From contig NZ_BQYK01000002.1 of the NCBI RefSeq assembly GCF_023168145.1, positions 461,792-525,791 on the forward strand: DNA of 64,000 nt, written 5' to 3'. Shown here piece by piece: positions 10,515-28,623 of the stretch (its first letter is position 1; each line of letters begins with the position of its first letter). The notes below the pieces were generated by a model that saw only the letters and a program-made list of their open reading frames with translations, had not been told where the DNA came from and made no database searches. The stretch is from Sporosarcina sp. NCCP-2222. Its GTDB lineage: Bacteria > Bacillota > Bacilli > Bacillales_A > Planococcaceae. The position numbers and the translations under genes were made by a program.

Positions 10515-11873
10515 ATGCCAGTGAATGGGAACCGAGATGAAATCTCACGAGCGCTCATTCAGCTGCTAAGAGAAGGAAAAAAAGATAAGTTCAAAAAGGC
10601 AATTGAAGAGCTGCCTCCGTTTGAGGTTGCGGCCCAATACCGCTGTCTCCCGAAAAAGCGCCGTCCATTATTTCTTGAAATTATCAGCACAGAAAATGTG
10701 GTTACGCTGCTTCGGTATTTAACAAAGAATGAGCAACTGAATGTGCTGAAATTAATCGGTCCGAAACGGTCGTACGAGTTGCTCGATTTGATGAAGAGCG
10801 AGGATTTGTCCTACCTTCTGTCTGACCTGCCCGATAAAGAAATCGAGCATTTGATTGCAGAATTGCGACAAGAGGAAAAACGAGATATACGGAAGATGAT
10901 GAAGTATCCGAAACGTTCGGCCGGACGAATCATGACAAGCCGATATGTTTGGGTGCATGAATCATATTCGGTGGAAAAAACCATCGACAAATTAAAGAAC
11001 TTCAAGGAGTTCGCCCACTATTTAAACTACGTCTATATTATTACAGACGATAAAAAATTGGCCGGCGTCTTATCCTACCGGGATTTATTGCTCGCCAAAC
11101 CGGACGAATGTGTGAAGGACATTATGACATCTGATGTAATGAGTGTACACGAGACGACCCAGCAGCGGGATGTTGCAAAAATGATTGGAAGATATGATTT
11201 CGTTTCCGTTCCGGTAGTGAACGATCAAAACGTACTCGTCGGGATTATTACAGCGGATGATGTACTTGATATTGTGGTCCGGGAAGCGAATGAAGACATT
11301 GAGATGCTGTTTGCCTCAGGTAAGTCAATCGATTTTAACACGCCTCCATTCATCGCTGCGTATCGCCGCTTGCCTTGGCTCATACTTCTATTGTTTATTG
11401 GCCTCGTCTCGGGGAGTATCATCTCCAAGTTCGAAGATACATTGCAGGCCGTTGTTGCTTTGGCCTTCTTCATGCCCATGATTGCCGGGATGACCGGGAA
11501 TACAGGAACCCAGTCGCTCGCTGTCGTGGTCCGCGGACTCGCATCCGATGATATGGATTTGAAGAGAGGATTAAAACTGGTCTTCCGAGAACTGATTGTC
11601 GGCGTTCTTCTCGGCGTCGTCTGCGGTGCCGTCATTTCTATCATCGCTTATATTTGGCAAGGCAGCTTCACGCTCGGCCTCGTCGTCGGATCTTCCCTCG
11701 TCGCTACGCTGATTATCGGTACACTCGCTGGAACCGTCATTCCACTTATTTTAAATAAATTCAAAGTGGACCCCGCAGTGGCATCCGGTCCGTTAATCAC
11801 AACAATTAACGATATCCTGTCATTGCTCATTTATTTCGGCATCGCTACGATGTTTATTTCAAAACTAATGTAA
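10515..11873 (+). CDS. mgtE: Magnesium transporter MgtE
   Basis: 452 residues. This is a Mg2+ channel/transporter of the inner membrane. The N domain spans residues 1-130, followed by the sequence AGRIMTSRYVWV, two CBS domains at about 135-255 that sense Mg2+, the plug helix, and five membrane segments from 275 with the pore signature GNTGTQSLAVVVRG. ATG 10515 is preceded by GAGGTG six bases upstream; an in-frame GTG three codons earlier lies inside that site. It is divergent from the amino acid ABC operon. The 170-base intergenic region shows no complete M-box riboswitch that I can recognise. Full family length and no damage. Confidence 0.96.
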   Translation: MPVNGNRDEISRALIQLLREGKKDKFKKAIEELPPFEVAAQYRCLPKKRRPLFLEIISTENVVTLLRYLTKNEQLNVLKLIGPKRSYELLDLMKSEDLSYLLSDLPDKEIEHLIAELRQEEKRDIRKMMKYPKRSAGRIMTSRYVWVHESYSVEKTIDKLKNFKEFAHYLNYVYIITDDKKLAGVLSYRDLLLAKPDECVKDIMTSDVMSVHETTQQRDVAKMIGRYDFVSVPVVNDQNVLVGIITADDVLDIVVREANEDIEMLFASGKSIDFNTPPFIAAYRRLPWLILLLFIGLVSGSIISKFEDTLQAVVALAFFMPMIAGMTGNTGTQSLAVVVRGLASDDMDLKRGLKLVFRELIVGVLLGVVCGAVISIIAYIWQGSFTLGLVVGSSLVATLIIGTLAGTVIPLILNKFKVDPAVASGPLITTINDILSLLIYFGIATMFISKLM

Positions 11874-11892
11874 TATGTGAACGCACACGCAA

Positions 11893-11922
11893 AAAGGAGT
11901 CCCGCAATCGGGACTCCTTTTC
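11893..11922. terminator. Bidirectional terminator between mgtE and the CoA-transferase gene
   Basis: AAAGGAGTCCCG and CGGGACTCCTTT form a perfect stem with a four-base loop, with A-run and T-run flanks that serve both convergent genes. Confidence 0.9.
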
Positions 11923-11967
11923 ATCTACAGGTTGGTACTATGTCAACAGGCTTTCACCTGATGGCAC

Positions 11968-13485
11968 TCATTGTGCTGTTTCTTCCACTTTCGGACGCAT
12001 CGTGCCGTGTTCCATAAGATTCAAATGCCAGGAGAACGCCTTTTCAAGGACATGCGGCGTATGCCCGCCACGCCCGAGCGCTTCCTCGTAATATGCCCAA
12101 AGGGGTTCACGATAGTCGGGATGCGCACAGTTCTCGATGATCAACCCAACCCGCTCCCGCGGGGCAAGCCCGCGTAAATCAGCATAGCCGTGTTCTGTTA
12201 CGATGACATCGACATCATGCTCGGTATGGTCGACATGCGAAACGAACGGCACAATACTCGAAATATCGCCGCCTTTAGCGACAGATTTGGTCACGAAGAT
12301 CGCAAGCCTGGCGTTTCGCGCAAAGTCGCCGGAGCCGCCGATGCCATTCATCATTTTCGTTCCTGTCACATGTGTTGAATTGACATTCCCATAAATATCA
12401 AGTTCAAGCGCCGTATTGATCGAGATCAAACCAAGTCGGCGAATAATTTCCGGGTGGTTGGAAATTTCCTGTGGCCGCATAACAAGTTTGTCACGATATT
12501 TTTCAAAATTAGAGAAGACCTGTTCCATCTTCTCTTGTGACAATGTAATGGAAGCGCATGACGCATAACGGACTTTTCCGGCGTCTATCAAGTCAAATAC
12601 AGCATCCTGCAACACTTCGGAGTAGACTTCCAGCTCCTCAAATTCTGAGTGCAGCATCCCATGAAGTACCGCATTCGCCTGTGACCCAATGCCGGATTGC
12701 AAAGGTGCCAGCTTATTCGTCAATCGGCCAGCCTTTATTTCTGACCGCAGGAATTCGAGAAGATGCCCCGCCATCATTTGCGTCTCTTCGTCTGGCTGCG
12801 TGATAAGCGAAGGGGAATCCTGCTGGTTCGTAAAGACGATACCCTTGATTTTTTCCAGCGCTACAGGAATTCCAATTGAACCGATTCGGTCATCTGTGTT
12901 AGCCAGCGGAATCGGCCGACGTTCGCCTTGCTTGCCCGGATCATAGAGATCGTGAACGCCTTCCAGTTCCGCAGCATGCGCTAAATTAATTTCAATGATA
13001 ACTGACTTTGCATGCTGGGCAAACGAATAGGAATTGCCGATGGACGTCGATGGAATCACCATTCCGTCCTCCGTAATTGCAACCGCTTCCAATATTGCGA
13101 AGTCGATCGAATCAATCACATTGGAACGAATCCATTCAGCCGTATGCGATAAATGATGATCGCAGAATAGCACATCTCCTTCGTTAATGCTCCTGCGCAT
13201 TGCCGGCTCCGCTTGGAAAGGCAACCGCTTATGTACAATCCCGGCTTCCGCAAATAGCTTATCAACATCCGAACCAAGGGAAGCTCCCGTGTAGACATTC
13301 ACTTTAAATGTTTCTGTTTCCGCCCGTTTTACTAATGCCATTGGAACTGCTTTGGCATCACCTGCCCGAGTAAACCCGCTGAGCCCTAGCGTCATCCCGT
13401 CCGAAATCCATGACGCTGCCTCTTCGGGGGACACGACCAAGTTTTTCAATTCATCGATTCGAATCCGATCCATTTGCTGCCCCAT
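11968..13485 (-). CDS. Acetyl-CoA hydrolase/transferase family protein (succinate:acetate CoA-transferase type)
   Basis: 505 residues, the length of class I succinyl-CoA:acetate CoA-transferases (AarC, Cat1). Such enzymes move CoA between acyl-CoA and a carboxylate in the cytoplasm, through a glutamyl-CoA intermediate. The CoA-binding glycine-rich stretch GIGSQANAVL and the catalytic Glu context ALELDIYGNVNST are present. The ATG 13485 lies near a modest ribosome site; an ATG five codons on, preceded by GGGGCAGC, is equally possible. A cre-like CcpA site lies about 55 bases upstream and the LytTR regulator gene follows upstream on the same strand. Role inferred: acetate or succinate metabolism under carbon control. 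Confidence 0.88.
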   Translation of the reverse strand: MGQQMDRIRIDELKNLVVSPEEAASWISDGMTLGLSGFTRAGDAKAVPMALVKRAETETFKVNVYTGASLGSDVDKLFAEAGIVHKRLPFQAEPAMRRSINEGDVLFCDHHLSHTAEWIRSNVIDSIDFAILEAVAITEDGMVIPSTSIGNSYSFAQHAKSVIIEINLAHAAELEGVHDLYDPGKQGERRPIPLANTDDRIGSIGIPVALEKIKGIVFTNQQDSPSLITQPDEETQMMAGHLLEFLRSEIKAGRLTNKLAPLQSGIGSQANAVLHGMLHSEFEELEVYSEVLQDAVFDLIDAGKVRYASCASITLSQEKMEQVFSNFEKYRDKLVMRPQEISNHPEIIRRLGLISINTALELDIYGNVNSTHVTGTKMMNGIGGSGDFARNARLAIFVTKSVAKGGDISSIVPFVSHVDHTEHDVDVIVTEHGYADLRGLAPRERVGLIIENCAHPDYREPLWAYYEEALGRGGHTPHVLEKAFSWHLNLMEHGTMRPKVEETAQ

Positions 13486-13536
13486 ACCGCCTAGCCCCTT
13501 TTCGTAACTTTTAGATAATCGTAAATCTATCGTATC

Positions 13537-13549
13537 GCAACCGCTTTCA
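13537..13549 (-). promoter_or_regulatory. cre-like CcpA site upstream of the CoA-transferase
   Basis: On the minus strand TGAAAGCGGTTGC fits the core TGNAANCGNWNNC of catabolite-responsive elements, 52-64 bases before the CoA-transferase start. Confidence 0.5.
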
Positions 13550-13634
13550 CGATAGGAGAATGGGGTGCATTTAAGGAAATATGAAGACGAATCGGGACAA
13601 TCTCAGGGTCAAGCAGAAGATTTTTGTTTTATAG

Positions 13635-13679
13635 TCTGCAGGCAGCTTGTGGAAGTGTTCTTATCAAACCGCCTGCAGA
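13635..13679. other. Hairpin between LytTR and CoA-transferase genes
   Basis: TCTGCAGGC and GCCTGCAGA form a perfect nine-base stem with a 27-base loop. It starts ten bases past the LytTR stop. No T-run follows on the minus strand, so it is more likely an mRNA-stabilising or attenuation structure than a standard terminator. Confidence 0.45.
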
Positions 13680-13688
13680 AGGAGGTTA

Positions 13689-14333
13689 TTAGAATCCGAG
13701 CATTTTCCGGAAGTAGCTGGAATAGGATTGACTGACCGGAATCTTTGCGCCGTTCGCCATACCAAGCACAAATGTAGAATGGGTATCGGGATAGATCTCC
13801 TTTATGTGATGAACATTTACAATGAAGGAACGGTGGCAGCGGACAAATAAATCACGCGGCAAACTGAACTCGAAGTTTTGTAGGGAATTCTTATGCGTGC
13901 CTGTCAGCTGATCCGCAATGACATATGTTTTTCGGTCCTTCACTTCAATATAATGCACATCACCGAAAGGAACCGGGACCCAGCCATCTTGCGTCCGGAT
14001 TGTAACGACGGACTTTCCTTCCGTAAACGCCGGATAAATCGCAACAACACAACCCGCCAGCTGGCCTTCCTGATGGAAAGGCACTGCCATCCCTTGGTAT
14101 GGGACTCCGAAGACATCCCGCTGGATAAACTCGGACACCCGCTGATCCTCGTGGAGCGCCTTGTATGCAATCGTTCCTTCTTTTACGGGATCGCCCGGTT
14201 TTATTTTTAAATCGACTCGCTTACTCGGCCGATAATAGACATATTCCTTCGTATTTGCCACGACGATGGAGATTTCGTCTGCGAACAATTCCCCCACAAT
14301 ATCGAGGAGGGCCGCATGTTGCAATGTTTCCAA
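13689..14333 (-). CDS. LytTR-family DNA-binding transcriptional regulator
   Basis: 214 residues. The C-terminal 100 residues are a LytTR DNA-binding domain (FGDVHYIEVKDRKTYV, LPRDLFVRCHRSFIVNVHHI, IPVSQSYSSYFRKML). The N-terminal half resembles a PAS/GAF-like sensing domain rather than a receiver: no phospho-acceptor aspartate pattern is visible. I place the start at TTG 14333 because AAGGAGTG lies eight to nine bases before it; the frame is open to an ATG at 14381 that has no ribosome site. It sits directly upstream of the CoA-transferase gene on the same strand, so it probably controls that gene in response to a metabolite (inference). Confidence 0.82.
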   Translation of the reverse strand: METLQHAALLDIVGELFADEISIVVANTKEYVYYRPSKRVDLKIKPGDPVKEGTIAYKALHEDQRVSEFIQRDVFGVPYQGMAVPFHQEGQLAGCVVAIYPAFTEGKSVVTIRTQDGWVPVPFGDVHYIEVKDRKTYVIADQLTGTHKNSLQNFEFSLPRDLFVRCHRSFIVNVHHIKEIYPDTHSTFVLGMANGAKIPVSQSYSSYFRKMLGF

Positions 14334-14468
14334 ATGGATCACTCCTTTTCCTGTGAACCTATACAAATAGTATAAATTCACTTGTCAAAGAATCAAGCTC
14401 TCACTTATAATAAATTTTAATCAATATTTTGATTTAACTGAAATGACTGTAGATAAGGGGGATTGACG

Positions 14469-15098
14469 ATGCATATTCGAGACTTGACGCTGGAACGTTT
14501 AGCAGTGGCAACTGTTTCTATTGAAGAGACTGTAAAAGATGCATTGAAAAAAATTAATGAGACGGGGTACCGTTGCATACCAGTTGTAGACTCGCAGGAT
14601 GCCTACAAAGGAATGTTATACAAAGTGGACTTGATCGAATATCTGTACGAAGAGAAAGGGGATGAGCAATCATCTATCGATTCTCTCGTCAAGCATGCGG
14701 ACATCTTTATTACAGAAGACGAGTCCTTCTTAAATGCGTTATTGCAAATCAAGGCATTGCCATTTATCAGCGTCGTAAAAGACGGGAAGCTATTTGGCAT
14801 TTTAACACACAATAAAGTCGAAAGCGTACTGGAAGATGCGTTTGGATTGAAAACAGGCGGCATTAACATCACCCTTGCATCAACAGAGGCAAAAGGGATG
14901 ATCAACCGTCTGACGAAAACCCTGCGCGATGACAATATCGAAGGCTTGCTGACACTCGATAACGGTTCCTCCCTTGCACGCCGCGTCGTCATTACTCTCG
15001 AAGATACCCGAAGTGATGAGGAAGTCGCCAAACTTCGTGAAAAGCTGGAAAAGAACGGTTTCCGTATTCTGCAGGTTTCCAGATTGAATAAAAAATAA
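14469..15098 (+). CDS. cbpA: CBS-domain protein, CbpA-like (cyclic di-AMP binding candidate)
   Basis: 209 residues. Two CBS motifs at residues 1-125 (VAVATVSIEETVKDAL-like and ITEDESFLNALLQI) are followed by an ACT-like domain (residues 130-205: GINITLASTEAKGMINRL... RRVVITLEDTRSDEEV). This architecture matches the CbpA family, which binds cyclic di-AMP in Listeria and relatives. ATG 14469 follows GGGGG by seven bases; an in-frame TTG two codons earlier is less likely. Divergent from the LytTR gene. Symbol by similarity of architecture, not proven. Confidence 0.8.
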   Translation: MHIRDLTLERLAVATVSIEETVKDALKKINETGYRCIPVVDSQDAYKGMLYKVDLIEYLYEEKGDEQSSIDSLVKHADIFITEDESFLNALLQIKALPFISVVKDGKLFGILTHNKVESVLEDAFGLKTGGINITLASTEAKGMINRLTKTLRDDNIEGLLTLDNGSSLARRVVITLEDTRSDEEVAKLREKLEKNGFRILQVSRLNKK

Positions 15099-16897: not shown

Positions 16898-19327
16898 ATG
16901 ATCATAGAGGAATTAAAAAAACATCCATCTATTTATCTGCTCGTCAATCAAAAATTTTGCATATCCACGGCAGACCGGGACGGGATCCTTCTTCATGTAA
17001 ATGAAAACTTTTGTACTCTTTCGCAGTATGATGCATCTGAATTGATTGGAAAAGATTTTGGATTATTAAACCCCGACTATGATAAAGACATATTCTTTGC
17101 CGAGATGAACGAGGCTTTTCAGAGCAATCGCTACTGGCATCGCAAAATTAAAAGTGTGGCTAAAGACGGTTCCCCCTACTGGGTGGAGGCGATCATTTCC
17201 CCCATCTTTAATGAGCAAGGCGAATTTGATGGGTTCATTTCCGTAGATACGGACGTGACGGCATCGGAACTTACAAGCAAGCAATATATCGAGACTGTTG
17301 AGAATCTACGAAATATCGAAAATGCACTCGATCACTCTTCCGTTGTGGCAATCACCGATTCAAAAGGGATTATCACGTATGTAAATGAGAAATTCTGTGA
17401 GCTATCGCAATACTCGCAAGCAGAGCTAATCGGCAAAACACACCGCGTCATCAACTCGGCCTATCATCCCAAACTCTTTTTCCAAGACATGTGGGAAACG
17501 ATCAGAAACGGTCAAGTGTGGCAAGGGGATATCCAAAATCGAGCGAAAGACGGGTCACTATATTGGGTGGCGACCACTATCGTCCCATTCGTGGGCAAAG
17601 ATGGGAGACCAGTTCAATATATTTCCATCCGCCATGATATCACTGCACGGAAGCAGGCGGAGCAATCACTTGAAATTGCATTGCTCAATGATTTCAGGCA
17701 AACAGTTAAAAATCTCCAAAACGCGATTTTTAAATACAAACCGGATAAAACTGGAGCCATCACGTTTACGCTAATGGAAGGAAAAATTGCTGAAGAATTA
17801 GGGGTTACTGCTGACTCATTAAATAATGGAAAACTTGGCGGGGAGTACAGCGAAGAAGAGCTATCACGGCTCTCTCAATTGTTCCATCAAGCACTTGTTG
17901 GGGAAACCGTTCAATTCGAACTCCCTTTTTCATTCATGACGTTTCTCGTGTATCTCTCCCCTATTTTTAGAGAGGGACAAGTGGAGGAAGTGGTCGGCAC
18001 GGCGATCGACATTACAGAACGCATGGAAGCGGAACGGGTCATTGAACATATGGCTTATTACGATTACCTGACCGGATTGCCAAACCGCCGGATGCTTCAG
18101 GAACAGGTGGCAGATTGGATCCATTATGCCCAAGAGGGCAACTCAGAATTTGCATTGCTCTTCATGGACTTGGATCGGTTTAAAATGATTAACGATACGC
18201 TAGGGCACCATGTTGGGGATGAATTGTTACAAGCAGTCGGCAAAAGATTGTCTCTCTCTGTGGGTGAAAAGGATTTTGTTGCACGGCTAAGCGGTGATGA
18301 ATTCGTCGTACTCGTTCGTTCAGGCGATCGTCCTGCCGTGCAAGCCATTTCTGAACGAATCGTGGAAGATCTGTCTTATCCGTACTTGCTGGGGCAGCAC
18401 GAAGTCTTCGTGGCGCCGAGCATTGGCATCAACTTCTACCCGGCAGATGCAACGGATTACAATACCCTAATGAGAAATGCGGATTCCGCGATGTATCTGG
18501 CAAAGGAATCCGGACGTGGCACCTATCAATTTTTCACAAAAAAACTGCACGATGAATTAGTGGAGCAGACCATGGTAGAAATGGAATTGCGACAAGCCTT
18601 GCAACGCAATCAGTTATCTCTTGCCTACCAGCCCCAATTCGATTTGAAAACCGGTCGGATGAAAGGCATGGAAGCCTTGCTCCGCTGGCAACATCCAATA
18701 CGCGGATTTATTTCACCCGCCTATTTCATACCGATTGCGGAGGACAACGGATTCATCCTGCCCATCGGCGAATGGGTGCTGAAAACCGCCTGCCGCGACG
18801 CAAAGGAATGGCAGCAGACAGGCTTGCCCCCCATGCGGGTTAGCGTCAACGTATCCATCCGTCAATTCAGGCAACCTTCTTTCGTATCCGATGTAAAAGC
18901 AATTCTGGATGAAACAGGACTTGAACCGCAATATCTCAACTTAGAAATCACCGAAACCATTATGTCCGATGTCCATCATGGCAAATTAATATTGCAAGAA
19001 CTGCGCAACCTGGGCGTCAACGCAAGCATCGACGACTTCGGAACGGGCTACTCATCCTTGATCTATTTAAGTAAATTTCCACTCACCCACTTAAAAATCG
19101 ATCAAGCATTCATTCGTGAGCTGGACGAAAACAACACAATGATCGTCAAAGCCATTATCGACCTTGCCAAAAATCTGAATCTGCAAGTCGTCGCAGAAGG
19201 CGTGGAAACCCAAGACCAAGCCTGCTTCCTTAACAAGCTGCACTGTGACGAAGTTCAAGGCTATCTATACGCCAAACCCCTCTCCAAGGCAGACTTCACC
19301 CGCTTGCTGGAGGAACAAAAAAATTAA
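16898..19327 (+). CDS. PAS-PAS-GGDEF-EAL protein (c-di-GMP turnover)
   Basis: 809 residues, no membrane segment, so cytoplasmic. PAS/PAC modules lie at about 10-125 (DRDGILLHVNENFCTLSQYD) and 140-255 (DSKGIITYVNEKFCELSQYS), a weaker PAS-like region at 270-375, GGDEF at about 380-545 and EAL at about 555-805. The GGDEF signature reads SGDEF and no RxxD inhibitory site precedes it, so cyclase activity is uncertain. The EAL catalytic set (EALLRW, NVSIRQF, ITETIM, IDDFGTGYSSL, AEGVET) is complete, so phosphodiesterase activity is likely. The two first PAS domains are very alike and may bind the same small ligand or cofactor. Monogenic; a strong terminator follows. Confidence 0.93.
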   Translation: MIIEELKKHPSIYLLVNQKFCISTADRDGILLHVNENFCTLSQYDASELIGKDFGLLNPDYDKDIFFAEMNEAFQSNRYWHRKIKSVAKDGSPYWVEAIISPIFNEQGEFDGFISVDTDVTASELTSKQYIETVENLRNIENALDHSSVVAITDSKGIITYVNEKFCELSQYSQAELIGKTHRVINSAYHPKLFFQDMWETIRNGQVWQGDIQNRAKDGSLYWVATTIVPFVGKDGRPVQYISIRHDITARKQAEQSLEIALLNDFRQTVKNLQNAIFKYKPDKTGAITFTLMEGKIAEELGVTADSLNNGKLGGEYSEEELSRLSQLFHQALVGETVQFELPFSFMTFLVYLSPIFREGQVEEVVGTAIDITERMEAERVIEHMAYYDYLTGLPNRRMLQEQVADWIHYAQEGNSEFALLFMDLDRFKMINDTLGHHVGDELLQAVGKRLSLSVGEKDFVARLSGDEFVVLVRSGDRPAVQAISERIVEDLSYPYLLGQHEVFVAPSIGINFYPADATDYNTLMRNADSAMYLAKESGRGTYQFFTKKLHDELVEQTMVEMELRQALQRNQLSLAYQPQFDLKTGRMKGMEALLRWQHPIRGFISPAYFIPIAEDNGFILPIGEWVLKTACRDAKEWQQTGLPPMRVSVNVSIRQFRQPSFVSDVKAILDETGLEPQYLNLEITETIMSDVHHGKLILQELRNLGVNASIDDFGTGYSSLIYLSKFPLTHLKIDQAFIRELDENNTMIVKAIIDLAKNLNLQVVAEGVETQDQACFLNKLHCDEVQGYLYAKPLSKADFTRLLEEQKN

Positions 19328-19333
19328 CATTGA

Positions 19334-19368
19334 GCCGCGCCCTCTATAGCAGAGGGCCGGCTTTTTTT
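19334..19368 (+). terminator. Terminator of the GGDEF-EAL gene
   Basis: GCCGCGCCCTCT and AGAGGGCCGGC pair with a five-base loop, followed by TTTTTTT. Confidence 0.92.
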
Positions 19369-19407: not shown

Positions 19408-19605
19408 TGGTATGAAAGGCGGCTTGCTGGTATGCGATGGAGTGATTGGAGATACGAGCGGTTCGCTGGATTATACGAGAGGTTCCGGAAGTTTACGAGC
19501 GGTCTTCGGGATATATGAGGGAATTGTAGAAGTTACGAGCGGTCACGGGATTATATGAGCGGTTGGCAACAGGATACGAGAGGTTGCTGGAATTATACGA
19601 GCGGT
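19408..19605. repeat. Intergenic array of ten ~20-bp units with core TAYGAGMGGT
   Basis: The core word TACGAG/TATGAG (usually TAYGAGMGGT) recurs with its first base at 19411, 19431, 19453, 19474, 19494, 19514, 19534, 19554, 19575 and 19596, that is with spacings of 20-22 bases. The 10-11 bases between cores vary. The first two units are divergent. The period is not a multiple of three, so it is not a coding repeat. It sits after the GGDEF-EAL terminator in a 518-base gap. The remainder of the gap, 19606-19907, has no gene and only a weak -10 (TATAGT near 19845) for the permease gene. Confidence 0.85.
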
Positions 19606-19907
19606 TTAGCGAAAAGACCGGGTATTAAACTTTTTATGCGTCGATTATTCAAAGACTTTCAATACGCGGCGAACCGTCATGCCTCGAAACACTCCATTCC
19701 GCGCTGAATGCTTTTAACAATTTAAGGTTTTTCATAGATACTGCAAATGTGTCCCCACCTCAACGTTAAAGCATCTGCCTATATTTTCACTGAACCTTCT
19801 AATTTATCTATCATTATATAGTCAGGCAGAATACTTTTATGGTATAGTAGCACCTAATTAATTGTTTCGTAACCTAGAGTAAGTGCTTGGGGAGGTTGGT
19901 GTTATGC

Positions 19908-24561: not shown

Positions 24562-24903
24562 TCAAAGAACTTCTTCTAGAAAATCAAGGAATTCTTGACG
24601 ATTTAAATAGCCAATAAACGTTTTGACAACTTCACCGTTTTTGAAAAGATACAACGATGGGAAAGAGTTGATGTCATATTTTAATTGTACCGGGTTTGAT
24701 TTCGCTTCGAAATCTTCATATGTAACCCAGTGTTTAACGAACTTTACTTTATCGGATAAATCTTCTGCCACATCTTCTAAAACCGGTTCGAATGCTTGGC
24801 ATGGACCGCATTCATCTGTGAAGAAGTCAACAAATACCGGTAATTCGCTTTCCAATACTTCTTTTTGAAAATCCTCTGCTTTAACTGTCAATACGTGAGA
24901 CAT
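24562..24903 (-). CDS. Thioredoxin family protein
   Basis: 113 residues, a single thioredoxin fold in the cytoplasm. The redox site is DECGPCQAF (CGPC, where canonical thioredoxin has WCGPC: here Trp is replaced by Glu). The cis-proline is in INSFPSLYLFKNG. The loss of the Trp and the acidic neighbourhood (TDECGPC) suggest a specialised thioredoxin-like reductase rather than the main TrxA. GGGGGAAATT precedes ATG 24903. It is a single gene with its own terminator. Confidence 0.9.
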   Translation of the reverse strand: MSHVLTVKAEDFQKEVLESELPVFVDFFTDECGPCQAFEPVLEDVAEDLSDKVKFVKHWVTYEDFEAKSNPVQLKYDINSFPSLYLFKNGEVVKTFIGYLNRQEFLDFLEEVL

Positions 24904-25056
24904 TATAATTTCCCCCTATTCCAAAATCACTTTGAGTGTTTCCTTGAATCCGGATTTCTCAATACTTGTACTCTAACGGGAATTGAATCGGACTACAATA
25001 GAGTGCGTTAAAGTCATCCTTTTTTAGGTTAATTCGGTCAGAAAGGACAGCTTTCC

Positions 25057-25299
25057 TGGCGTTTGTTCCGTTCATATGGCATCTCTATTTTATGGACTTA
25101 AACATATATTTGGCGTCCGGGGTTGTTATTTGGCGCGGGTCAAAGGTTTATCTGGAATTAAACCGGTTTCTGGCGTTCGTTTTGACATTCTGGCGTTCAA
25201 CCTGGTTTTCTGGCGTTCGCCCCGATATTCTGGCGTTCAGCTCGACTTTCTGGCGTTCGCCCTGATATTCTGGCGTTCAACTATTATTTGGCGCCTCTT
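25057..25299. repeat. Intergenic array of 20-bp units with core TTCTGGCGTTC
   Basis: TGGC words start at 25057, 25077, 25111, 25131, 25171, 25191, 25211, 25231, 25251, 25271 and 25289; a degenerate TGGA at 25153 fills the missing phase. From 25111 to 25271 every intact copy is exactly in a 20-base register. The core TTCTGGCGTTC is perfect in six consecutive units (25168-25278); the nine bases between cores vary. The period is not divisible by three. The array fills most of the 469-base gap between the thioredoxin-like start and the end of the RND pump gene. The rest of the gap holds no gene. Confidence 0.9.
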
Positions 25300-25330
25300 G
25301 AACTCGATTCACTCAAGAGAACCAACCTAA

Positions 25331-25360
25331 CCCCTGCCTGCACAAAATGGCAGGCAGGGG
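25331..25360 (-). terminator. Hairpin after the RND pump gene
   Basis: CCCCTGCCTGC and GCAGGCAGGGG form a perfect 11-base stem 12 bases past the pump gene stop. The T-run is short (GGGGTTAGG), so strength is uncertain. Confidence 0.65.
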
Positions 25361-25372
25361 CTGTAAGATGAG

Positions 25373-28300
25373 TTATTTCACAAATTCCGGCACGCTATTC
25401 GATAGCGCTTTGTCTGTCACCTTCTCTGTTTCTTTCACGGCGACTGTGCGTCTAGTGACAAGACGGTAGACTGCCGGAATCAACAGCAAGGTAATGATAG
25501 TGGCAAACAGTAATCCGGAGATGAGCACTGTAGCGAGCGGTGCCTGGTAATTGCCGGACGCGCCGGATGCCAGGGCGAGTGGGAGCATGCCGCCTACTGT
25601 TGTCAGTGTCGTCATGAAGATGGGACGGATCCGCTGCTTCCCTGCTGCGACAAGCGCTTCCTCTACTTGCATGCCTTCTCTGCGTAATTGATTCGTCCGG
25701 TCAATGAGCAGGATGGCATTGTTCAGGACGATGCCGATGAGCATAATGACGCCCATTCCGGATAATAGATTGAGTTCCCGCTGCGTCAGGAAGAGGCCGA
25801 CAATGACCCCGATAATGGCCATTGGAATGACGGACATGACAATCAGCGGATGGCCGAGGTGATTGAATTGAACTGCCATGACGAAGTAGACAAGGAACAT
25901 AGCGATGCCAAGCACGATTGCCATTTCCATCATCAGCTGCTGTTGTTGCTCGATGTCGCCGCCCGCGTCGATTGCATAGCCAGCTGGCAGATCGAACGCA
26001 TTGATTACCTTTTGGACGTCCCGATTAATCGTGCCTAAGTCTTTGCCTTCGATATCAGCGCCAATTACGATAAAACGCTCTCCATCCATATGTGTGATTT
26101 CTTTTGGTGTCTGAACCGATTGGAATTCAATTAATGAGGAGAGCTTCCTATCTCCCGCCGCTGTCGGAATCTCCATGTTCAAAACATCATTTGCGGAGTT
26201 TGTTTTGGTTGCCCATCTGACCATCAGAGGGATTTGTTCCTCGTTATAGGCCATTTCACCGACTGGCATGTCAATGAATGCTTGCTGTAGAAATTGTTTC
26301 ACCTGCATTCTGGTTAATCCCGCTTCTTCAATTGCGGACTCTTTCAAAACGACCTGTTGCTGCTTCTGGCTGTTCTCCATGGAATCCGTGATGCCGACAA
26401 GCCCTTCAATAGATGAGAGCTTTTTTATGAATTCCTTCCCGATTGATTGCAGCTTCGAATAGTCTTCCCCTTTAATCACCACTTGGACAGGTGAGCCGCC
26501 TGAACCATCCATTGCACTTTGGACATTCTTAATTGGCATTTGTTCCGTTAATGCCCGTAATGATTTTAGAATTTCTTCGTTTACTTGTTTTTGTTCCGTC
26601 TTGATCGCTTCGCCTTTTGTCATATTAATTATTCCGATGAGCAGATTCCCGTTGTCGATAAGGAACGTAGAGTCTACATCGTCGATGGCGCCTAACTGCT
26701 GTGATACTTTTTGTACGACTTGCTCTTTTTCATTGCCTTCCACACCAGGTTCCAATTCGATGAGGATTTCTGCATATCGATTGAAGATATCCGGCATAAC
26801 GGTCATCGGGATTTTATTCACTAGCGTGAGCGAACCTCCAAATAAGAGTAGGAAAAGGACAATGACAAGACCGCTTCTCCACTTCTTACCGACAATCCAG
26901 GAAATCGAGGCACCATACTGCCTCATGACTTTGCCCTCCGCCTTTCCTTTCGTCGATTTTCGGTAGCGTAAAAACCGTTCTGAAAGCGTCGGAATGATGG
27001 TAAAAGCGACAAGGACGGAACTGATCAATGTCACCGCCACAACGATGGACAAAATGATCATGAACTGCCCCATATCTCCTCCGATGAAACCGATCGGCAG
27101 GAATACAACAATTGTTGTCAGCATGGAGGAAATGACAGCGCCTGCGACCTCTTTTGTTCCAACCAGAACGGCATCGAGTTTGCCTAAACCGAGTTCCTTC
27201 TGCCGATAAATGGACTCCAATATGACAATTGAGGAGTCGACCATCATGCCAATGCCAAGCCCAAGACCGATAAGCGTCAGCATATTCAAGCTATAGCCCA
27301 GCAGGTAGACCGTCAAAAATGTCAGCAAAACAGACGTCGGGATGGAGATGCCGATAATGAGCGTCGCGCGGACGTTTCTCAAAAACAGCAATAAGATGGC
27401 TACCGCCACAATACTTCCGATCAAAATATTATCTGCCACGCCATCAATCGACTCTTGAACGAAGTCGGCTTGCGCCACCATTTCATTCAACTCAAAGTCT
27501 TTAACCAGTCCTTCCTCCTGGATTTTATCCACTTCCGCCCGGACAGCCTTTGCCATATCGAGCTGGGTGGCGCCGTTCGCCCTTCCGATTTGAATAAAAA
27601 TCAAGTCTTTGGAGCCGTTCTTCCATACATAGGATGCATTCTCAAGCGGCTCAATGGAGATCGAAGCGATGTCGCCAAGAGGGATGTTCCCTGTAGCAGT
27701 TGGTATCTCCACTTTGCGTAAATCCTCTACATCCTCCACTTTTGTTTGCCAGCGAAGCAAGGAACCATTCCCATCCTCGGCCTCCAGCTCGCCAAGTGTC
27801 ATTTCCGAATTCCCTTCCGAGATGCTTCCAATTACATAAGAGGCATCTATACCAAGCTCCGCCATCTTTTTACGATCCAATTGGATAGACACTTCCCGCT
27901 CCACTGTTCCAGATACATTGACTTCCTGTACTTCTTTCAAGCTTTCCAATCTAGGTTTTAACACTTGCCGTGCGAAAGAGGACATTTCCTCCATCTCACC
28001 GCCGGAAGCTTCCATGAAGAACTCATACCCTTGCCGCACCCCATATTGGCCCGTGTAAGCTTCTTTAATTTCCGGATGCTCCGCACGGAGGCTGCTCACA
28101 ACCCGCTCCACTTCCTGAATGGCTTCCGCTCCTTTTCCTCTGGCGAAAACCATATCCAACTGCGTGCCACCTAGTTTTGTCGTGGACTGAACCTTCTCCA
28201 CATCACCGAGCGCCTGCAATTTCTGTTCTAGCGTGTTAGTAATTCGCTCTTCTATGTCAATCGCAGCCATATCTCCCGCCTCGATGACGATATATCCGCC

Positions 28301-28429
28301 GTCCGTTCCGACAGATGGCATGATCTCTTTGTCGAGACGGAAAACGGCTAAGACCCCTAACAAAATGATCATGGTGGATAATAACCCGACCAACACCTTT
28401 TTTTGTACGATGCTTTCTAAAATTTTCAC
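25373..28429 (-). CDS. RND family efflux transporter (SwrC/AcrB-like)
   Basis: 1018 residues, two repeats of six membrane segments with large outer loops, the normal length for the HAE-type RND family. Visible features: N-terminal helix with VFRLDKEIMPSVG, the TM4 proton-relay region GLGIGMMVDSSIVILES, and the second-half MGVIMLIGIVLNNAILLIDRTNQLRREG. The start is GTG 28429 (KILESIVQKK) with AAGGGG eight bases upstream; the frame is open nine codons further. In Bacillus subtilis the relative SwrC (YerP) exports surfactin and confers tolerance to amphiphiles. No membrane-fusion partner gene is nearby, as expected in Gram-positives. Confidence 0.92.
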   Translation of the reverse strand: MKILESIVQKKVLVGLLSTMIILLGVLAVFRLDKEIMPSVGTDGGYIVIEAGDMAAIDIEERITNTLEQKLQALGDVEKVQSTTKLGGTQLDMVFARGKGAEAIQEVERVVSSLRAEHPEIKEAYTGQYGVRQGYEFFMEASGGEMEEMSSFARQVLKPRLESLKEVQEVNVSGTVEREVSIQLDRKKMAELGIDASYVIGSISEGNSEMTLGELEAEDGNGSLLRWQTKVEDVEDLRKVEIPTATGNIPLGDIASISIEPLENASYVWKNGSKDLIFIQIGRANGATQLDMAKAVRAEVDKIQEEGLVKDFELNEMVAQADFVQESIDGVADNILIGSIVAVAILLLFLRNVRATLIIGISIPTSVLLTFLTVYLLGYSLNMLTLIGLGLGIGMMVDSSIVILESIYRQKELGLGKLDAVLVGTKEVAGAVISSMLTTIVVFLPIGFIGGDMGQFMIILSIVVAVTLISSVLVAFTIIPTLSERFLRYRKSTKGKAEGKVMRQYGASISWIVGKKWRSGLVIVLFLLLFGGSLTLVNKIPMTVMPDIFNRYAEILIELEPGVEGNEKEQVVQKVSQQLGAIDDVDSTFLIDNGNLLIGIINMTKGEAIKTEQKQVNEEILKSLRALTEQMPIKNVQSAMDGSGGSPVQVVIKGEDYSKLQSIGKEFIKKLSSIEGLVGITDSMENSQKQQQVVLKESAIEEAGLTRMQVKQFLQQAFIDMPVGEMAYNEEQIPLMVRWATKTNSANDVLNMEIPTAAGDRKLSSLIEFQSVQTPKEITHMDGERFIVIGADIEGKDLGTINRDVQKVINAFDLPAGYAIDAGGDIEQQQQLMMEMAIVLGIAMFLVYFVMAVQFNHLGHPLIVMSVIPMAIIGVIVGLFLTQRELNLLSGMGVIMLIGIVLNNAILLIDRTNQLRREGMQVEEALVAAGKQRIRPIFMTTLTTVGGMLPLALASGASGNYQAPLATVLISGLLFATIITLLLIPAVYRLVTRRTVAVKETEKVTDKALSNSVPEFVK

Positions 28430-28623
28430 AAGTAAACCCCTTCCATTCATTATCAACTGACTGACTTAACCGTACCACCTGCGGCCAGCACTCTATAACG
28501 AGCCACCGTCCGATTTCTCATTCAGCCTTAGGTCGTAGATTCAGATAAGTGACACTTTCTCGTATAATGGGTCTACTCAGAAAGGCACTTTCCAGTTAAG
28601 ATTAGGAAAAGGAGGGGTTCGTC

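Follow-up and report, generated by a model that had tools for sequence, protein, structure and literature searches.

Tandem arrays with two-turn units and lineage-specific cores, a possible satellite-like class of intergenic repeats in Sporosarcina

The array of 20-bp direct repeats beside a thioredoxin-family gene of Sporosarcina sp. NCCP-2222 belongs to a class of intergenic arrays, which recurs with the same design, and with further cores, in this genome and in other species. We give a probability of about one half to the reading that these arrays are a satellite-like class of direct repeats of Sporosarcina, whose cores are putative binding sites and which possibly organise the chromosome. 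Such constancy of the core over dozens of sites and several species, next to neighbouring units that are otherwise alike at chance level, speaks for its recognition, most simply by a putative DNA-binding protein spaced two helical turns apart. The arrays also bear the marks of satellite turnover: blocks of units are duplicated, edges are degenerate, and copy number varies at fixed sites.

The two arrays of the window

Both arrays lie in the window, i.e. the whole stretch of 64,000 nucleotides that was analysed. The relevant features are as follows.

16898-19327: GGDEF/EAL gene
19339-19363, + strand: terminator-like site in the gap between the GGDEF/EAL gene and the second array (scan)
19447-19615, + strand: second array, core TACGAGCGGT, 20- and 21-bp units in 41-bp pairs, with weaker units from about 19408
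24562-24903, - strand: thioredoxin-family gene, with the first array on its 5' side (gene call)
25050-25106, + strand: degenerate, out-of-phase left edge, with TTTCCTGGCGTTT at 25052 and ATATGGCATC at 25074 (sequence read)
25107-25147, + strand: two weak units in phase, ATTTGGCGTCC and ATTTGGCGCGG, with TGGC at 25111 and 25131 (sequence read)
25168-25287, + strand: first array, six units of 20 bp, each the core TTCTGGCGTTC plus nine variable bases (sequence read, core match)
25279-25299, + strand: right edge, the last variable half AACTATTAT and then a TTTGGCGCC unit (sequence read)
25330-25361, - strand: GC-rich hairpin without a clean T run, between the efflux gene and the first array (by eye; the terminator scan made no call)
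25373-28456, - strand: AcrB-type RND transporter (efflux) gene, 3' end toward the first array (gene call)

The initial annotation described six successive units with an identical 11-base core and nine variable bases, and the exact TTCTGGCGTTC cores indeed start at 25168, 25188, 25208, 25228, 25248 and 25268 (20-bp steps, span 25168-25278). All six exact copies found in the 64-kb window belong to this array. When up to two mismatches are allowed, the window holds 26 matches against 18.6 expected, an overall enrichment that is not significant; the signal therefore comes from the six copies that are perfect and from how they are spaced. The annotation also extended the series with weaker units in the same phase in both directions, which is correct for the inner units at 25111 and 25131 and incorrect for the outer ones: the left-hand TGGC motifs (25057, 25077) are out of phase, as is the right-hand one at 25289, 18 bp beyond the preceding one. 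The left edge is conserved in part in S. cyprini. A third core form, TTATTTGGCGC, seen at 25107-25147 of the window and after position 2700 of locus L206, flanks TTCTGGCGTTC arrays in 20-22 bp steps, both in the own genome and in S. cyprini; it represents either older units or another core family.

A feature absent from the initial annotation is that the variable nine-base halves of the first array are of two types in alternation, and the true repeat is therefore 40 bp long. In Tandem Repeats Finder, the 40-bp period has the higher score (160, compared to 122 for the 20-bp period). Gene calls bear out the intergenic location, an 84-aa ORF that runs across the array (25076-25330) being called accidental. 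The scan found no terminator-like site for this array, and an Rfam search of the window matched only a tRNA and neither array.

The TACGAGCGGT array belongs to a second genome-wide family, hereafter the TACG type, as opposed to the TTCT type of the TTCTGGCGTTC arrays. The statement that the two cores are unrelated has to be softened: 6 of 11 ungapped positions are identical by inspection (T.C..GCG.T.), core variants such as TACTGGCGTTC exist, and, judging from such sequence likeness, a distant kinship is possible.

Core families and unit architecture

The own genome (4.02 Mb, 24 contigs) carries 192 exact TTCTGGCGTTC cores (142 on the + and 50 on the - strand), compared to 4 matches for a reversed-word control. 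The spaced pattern core-N9-core occurs 102 times versus 0 in the control, and 100/100 of the exact cores among the matches listed sit in arrays. For TACGAGCGGT, 151 matches contrast with 10 for its control, and at least 29 arrays of both types were read (14 TTCT, 15 TACG). A search of intergenic DNA for 20-base periodicity, proposed in the initial annotation, was run on an unbiased 464-kb sample of this genome (the window and 20 further stretches). It revealed other such arrays, the three non-ORF tandem arrays of the sample (score of at least 80, at least three copies) all having a period of 40-41, which upholds the suggestion of a class of elements. In 15 other stretches from the genus, the non-ORF tandem periods were 41, 29, 67 and 21, and in 15 stretches from other genera 34, 18, 21 and 29.

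The cores differ in their distribution. Pairs of TTCTGGCGTTC were found in 2/61 relatives and in 2/200 family genomes, the own genome being included in both counts, and such pairs are also present in genomes of Sporosarcina luteola and S. cyprini (21 stretches). TACGAG pairs occur in 6/68 genus genomes, with many in four of them (G000, G016, G062, G079). Pairs of TTGGACAC occur in 10/68 genus genomes, five of which have at least 5 matches (control 0 in all), and GATCGGT pairs in 37/68, with at least 5 in 14/68 (controls mostly 0 or 1). The reversed GATCGGT control gave 11 matches in G013, perhaps from another repeat array. When the core searches are combined, 17/68 genus genomes have at least 5 matches for one or more cores. 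Outside the genus, TTATCTCGG gave 60 matches in 1/200 family genomes (G102; control 0); the arrays concerned (L122, L235-L237) consist of 21-bp units with the core TTATCTCGG, and one reaches a contig end. Samples of G001 and G012 contain single arrays bearing yet other cores. A further tandem repeat, at 11095-14876 of locus L104, has a 67-bp period, about 56 copies and a CRISPR-like look. Array sites were taken among the matches listed, full maps for named patterns cover G072 contig C1, G079 and G071, and gene calls in our scripts are ORF-length heuristics. A literature search of openly licensed PMC papers found no description of such arrays.

A unit is composed of a conserved core of 7-11 bp and a variable remainder, with a mean length of 20-21 bp or about two helical turns, and all units of one array have the same orientation. 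Since our unit parser accepted only 19-22 bp steps, independent backing for this length comes from the period finders alone. TTCT units are 20 bp long and their adjacent pairs measure exactly 40 bp in 410/422 cases. For TACG pairs, 41 bp is the usual length in G000 (79/107) and G062 (94/131), and the length in G016 and G079 is 40-42 bp.

Comparison of the variable halves, confined to runs of at least seven units (5/27 TTCT and 22/60 TACG runs were shorter, and loci L130 and L131 were left aside), gave for TTCT arrays a mean identity of 0.35 at lag 1 and 0.78 at lag 2, lag 2 exceeding lag 1 in 21/22 runs with one tie. The TACG arrays gave 0.27 and 0.60, with lag 2 higher in 33/38 runs. Since neighbouring halves are alike at chance level and next-but-one halves at 60-78%, the copied block is the 40/41-bp pair. 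An obligate dimer was nevertheless rejected as a general rule. The block of TTGGACAC arrays often comprises five units (21+21+21+21+19 bp, i.e. 103 bp, in L228, L229, L233 and L234 from more than one species), and lag 5 is the best, with an identity of at least 0.6, in 7/14 runs (G002, G009, G078). The TTATCTCGG arrays of the other genus are monomer-like, without higher-order organisation in 3/3 runs, and 3/22 TTCT runs have a lag-1 identity of at least 0.65. Thus, block size varies with core type, while the mean unit stays at 20-21 bp.

Between next-but-one units, the core diverges less than the variable part: 0.043 versus 0.194 for TTCT (4.5x less) and 0.071 versus 0.219 for TACG (3.1x less). 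Core divergence is lowered by the selection of units itself, which admitted those within 3 mismatches of the core, in pairs at least 70% alike and of 20 bp only. Hypermutation of the variable half was rejected, the share of transitions among the differences (488/769 and 253/470) being nothing unusual.

Sites, chromosome map and gene setting

At the thioredoxin site, the orthologous array of S. cyprini has 29 cores, exact or near-exact, compared to 6 in the window. In the adjacent flank 137/148 aligned bases are identical, and the two arrays share AACTATTAT as their final variable half. Among eight genomes with a close thioredoxin homologue, two have an array at this site and the six others have none; in G028, a transporter that looks the same by eye lies directly next to the thioredoxin gene. 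More generally, flanking proteins join the array sites into 18 cross-genome groups, with sides and directions in agreement in every link listed; in each of the four species compared, a TACG-type array occupies the gap between DmpA and MnhG. Place and orientation are thus kept between species, while copy number changes.

Maps built from dnaA positions and core match lists show that the terminal third of the chromosome is poor in arrays in the three near-complete genomes: 1/26 loci in G072 (8.7 expected; p 0.0004 against a uniform distribution), 1/20 in G079 (6.7; p 0.004) and 2/18 in G071 (6.0; p 0.03, weak alone). In G072 and G079, but not in G071, the largest empty arc is centred no more than 65 kb from the point opposite dnaA. 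In G071 all 8 TTGGACAC loci (L226, L227) share one direction and lie within 397 kb (3.83-4.23 Mb), a clustering reached in 0/200,000 uniform draws. In S. cyprini, one contig carries both dnaA and the orthologue of the window array, about 133 kb apart. RacA sites were also considered as a possibility, since contig C2, where many of the TTCT arrays are found, is colinear with the origin side of G079. The core is on the lagging strand in 17/22 TTCT arrays and in 9/9 and 10/11 TACG arrays of G016 and G079, compared to 7/14 in G000, 6/11 in G062 and 2/8 for GATCGGT in G079; this lean being uneven across genomes and cores, a replication-strand rule was dropped.

TACG arrays favour gaps between convergent genes (23/48 versus 35/194 ordinary gaps of at least 80 bp; Fisher p 5e-5) and are scarce in divergent gaps (2/48 versus 48/194; Fisher p 0.001), both p values being too small since orthologous sites were counted separately. 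This count omits one TACG array that has a neighbouring gene on just one side. The TTCT arrays have no setting preference (6 convergent, 6 divergent and 10 co-directional, n=22). Taken together, the under-representation at the terminus and the scarcity of TACGAG-type arrays between divergent promoters tentatively suggest that bound arrays may organise or anchor the chromosome. Terminus depletion by itself suggests such a role weakly, and it may be no more than a sign that old sites, inherited vertically, last longer away from the variable terminus region.

Possible origins, related systems and significance

In the mechanism that we propose, the core would be the recognition site of a putative sequence-specific DNA-binding protein, and the two-turn spacing would have proteins bound in succession lie on roughly the same helical face. 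A counterpoint to this helical-face model is that a spacing of exactly 20.0 bp gradually goes out of phase with a 10.5-bp helix. Blocks of units would be gained and lost via slippage or unequal recombination, from which the alternation and the degenerate edges could result. More tentatively, bound arrays would act as chromosome-organising or anchoring sites and not as operators of promoters, and the core may change together with its reader across lineages. The TTCT arrays that do not avoid divergent genes (6/22), the uneven strand bias and the monomer-like arrays of the other genus are counterpoints to the binding-site reading as a whole. A more elaborate version of it, which we regard as doubtful, is a chromosome-address system that switches between lineages: each core type would be read by its own putative filament protein, DNA outside the terminus would be marked for anchoring or division control, and core and reader would be replaced together while the architecture and many sites persist.

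The main rival is a neutral satellite with a copying bias, a possibility of real though lesser weight. The arrays would be non-functional minisatellites, growing and shrinking by slippage or unequal recombination and surviving where they are harmless, away from promoters and coding DNA, with intact-core units preferentially recombined or copied. The homogeneous middle with degenerate edges, the shift in copy number at a fixed site (6 versus 29 units), the block duplications and the avoidance of divergent promoters by TACG arrays are all in line with this explanation. On the other hand, neighbouring units share little beyond the core, and plain homology-driven copying would not keep the core alone constant over dozens of sites and several species; moreover, a spacing of about two turns recurs under different cores. 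Dispersal of a mobile, STAR-like repeat by some copying machinery could explain why one core occurs at many sites in a genome and why sites, such as that at the thioredoxin gene, are missing in relatives. It appears unlikely, however, given the sites common to several species (18 cross-genome groups), the lack of a boundary signature or target duplication at the few empty sites examined, and a viral collection that gave one matching stretch for the TACG pattern and none for TTCT.

Still less probable is an element acting at the RNA level, i.e. transcribed 3' UTR repeats that bind a protein or a small RNA. Many arrays do lie downstream of gene 3' ends, but a terminator-like site precedes the array at 30/57 gene ends facing TACG arrays and 6/15 facing TTCT arrays, compared to 50/156 ordinary gene ends (8 TACG and 7 TTCT gene gaps were out of range for this test), and relative to co-directional genes the arrays are sense in 10 cases and antisense in 13. 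Folding of 12 arrays (up to 240 nt each, both strands) gave 1/24 values below z -2 (L078, -2.54) and 6/24 above z +2. With no consistent fold and no Rfam match, RNA structure was rejected as the basis of the arrays. A decayed coding repeat, raised in the initial annotation, or a CRISPR-like array scarcely deserves consideration. The repeat with its variable part and the accidental ORF across the window array are reminiscent of these, but periods of 40 and 41 bp are not codon multiples, alternate units share variable halves, and the repeats are far shorter than those of CRISPR, numerous and outside long ORFs; a coding repeat was rejected on period and ORF overlap.

Among known repeats, eukaryotic satellite DNA consists of short monomers in diverged multi-monomer blocks, with a homogeneous middle and degenerate edges. 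The Sporosarcina arrays share the monomer blocks, the middle and the edges, but they are bacterial, tens of units long and scattered over many intergenic sites. The REP/BIME elements of enterobacteria are likewise extragenic with alternating unit types, but REPs are palindromic and alternate in orientation, whereas all units of a Sporosarcina array point one way, their cores are by inspection not palindromic, and folding gave no consistent structure. As in minisatellites (VNTR), the units are in tandem and copy number varies at a site, here in a between-species comparison. Unlike CRISPR, with unique spacers and repeats of about 23-50 bp, the arrays have a core of 7-11 bp and recurring halves, as judged from the repeats alone. 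The closest described kind are the STAR elements of Staphylococcus, reportedly the subject of work by Cramton in 2000.

In the portion of the STAR paper used here (Purves 2012, PMC3532100), these are direct repeats of unknown function, dispersed between genes and varying in copy number at fixed sites; their short motif is conserved, and their variable spacers recur. The motif is 14 bp long (TNTGTTGNGGCCCN), the spacers 40-44 bp, and a site holds 1-7 motifs; a single motif is described for all species, and no site as common to species (same portion of PMC3532100). The Sporosarcina arrays are likewise intergenic direct repeats of variable copy number. In place of the 14-bp motif they have the cores TTCTGGCGTTC, TACGAGCGGT, GATCGGT, TTGGACAC and TTATCTCGG, and in place of spacers of at least 40 bp they have 20-21 bp units with 9-14 bp spacers. 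They also reach 45 units, with a lineage-specific core, cross-species sites and an order of pairs or pentamers. Since the arrays differ from STAR as set out there in motif and unit size, in having a species-specific core and in the conservation of their sites, they are best placed as a variant within intergenic direct-repeat elements. The Noc sites of B. subtilis, in the part of PMC4331003 consulted, are palindromic and number about 70 specific sites over the chromosome, largely absent from the terminus. The likeness to them is one of map only, namely the terminus depletion (1/26, 1/20 and 2/18, that of G071 alone being weak); the present cores, unlike Noc or ParB sites, are by inspection not palindromes, and they recur as direct repeats within arrays.

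Should the core be a binding site, an undescribed chromosomal DNA-binding protein would have hundreds of sites in these genomes, and the cores, being specific to lineages, would provide a natural test of the joint change of a protein and its sites across the genome. Should the arrays be neutral, they would be bacterial satellite DNA with higher-order repeats, in which the rise of such order in a small genome could be studied. The arrays are also fast markers for strain typing.
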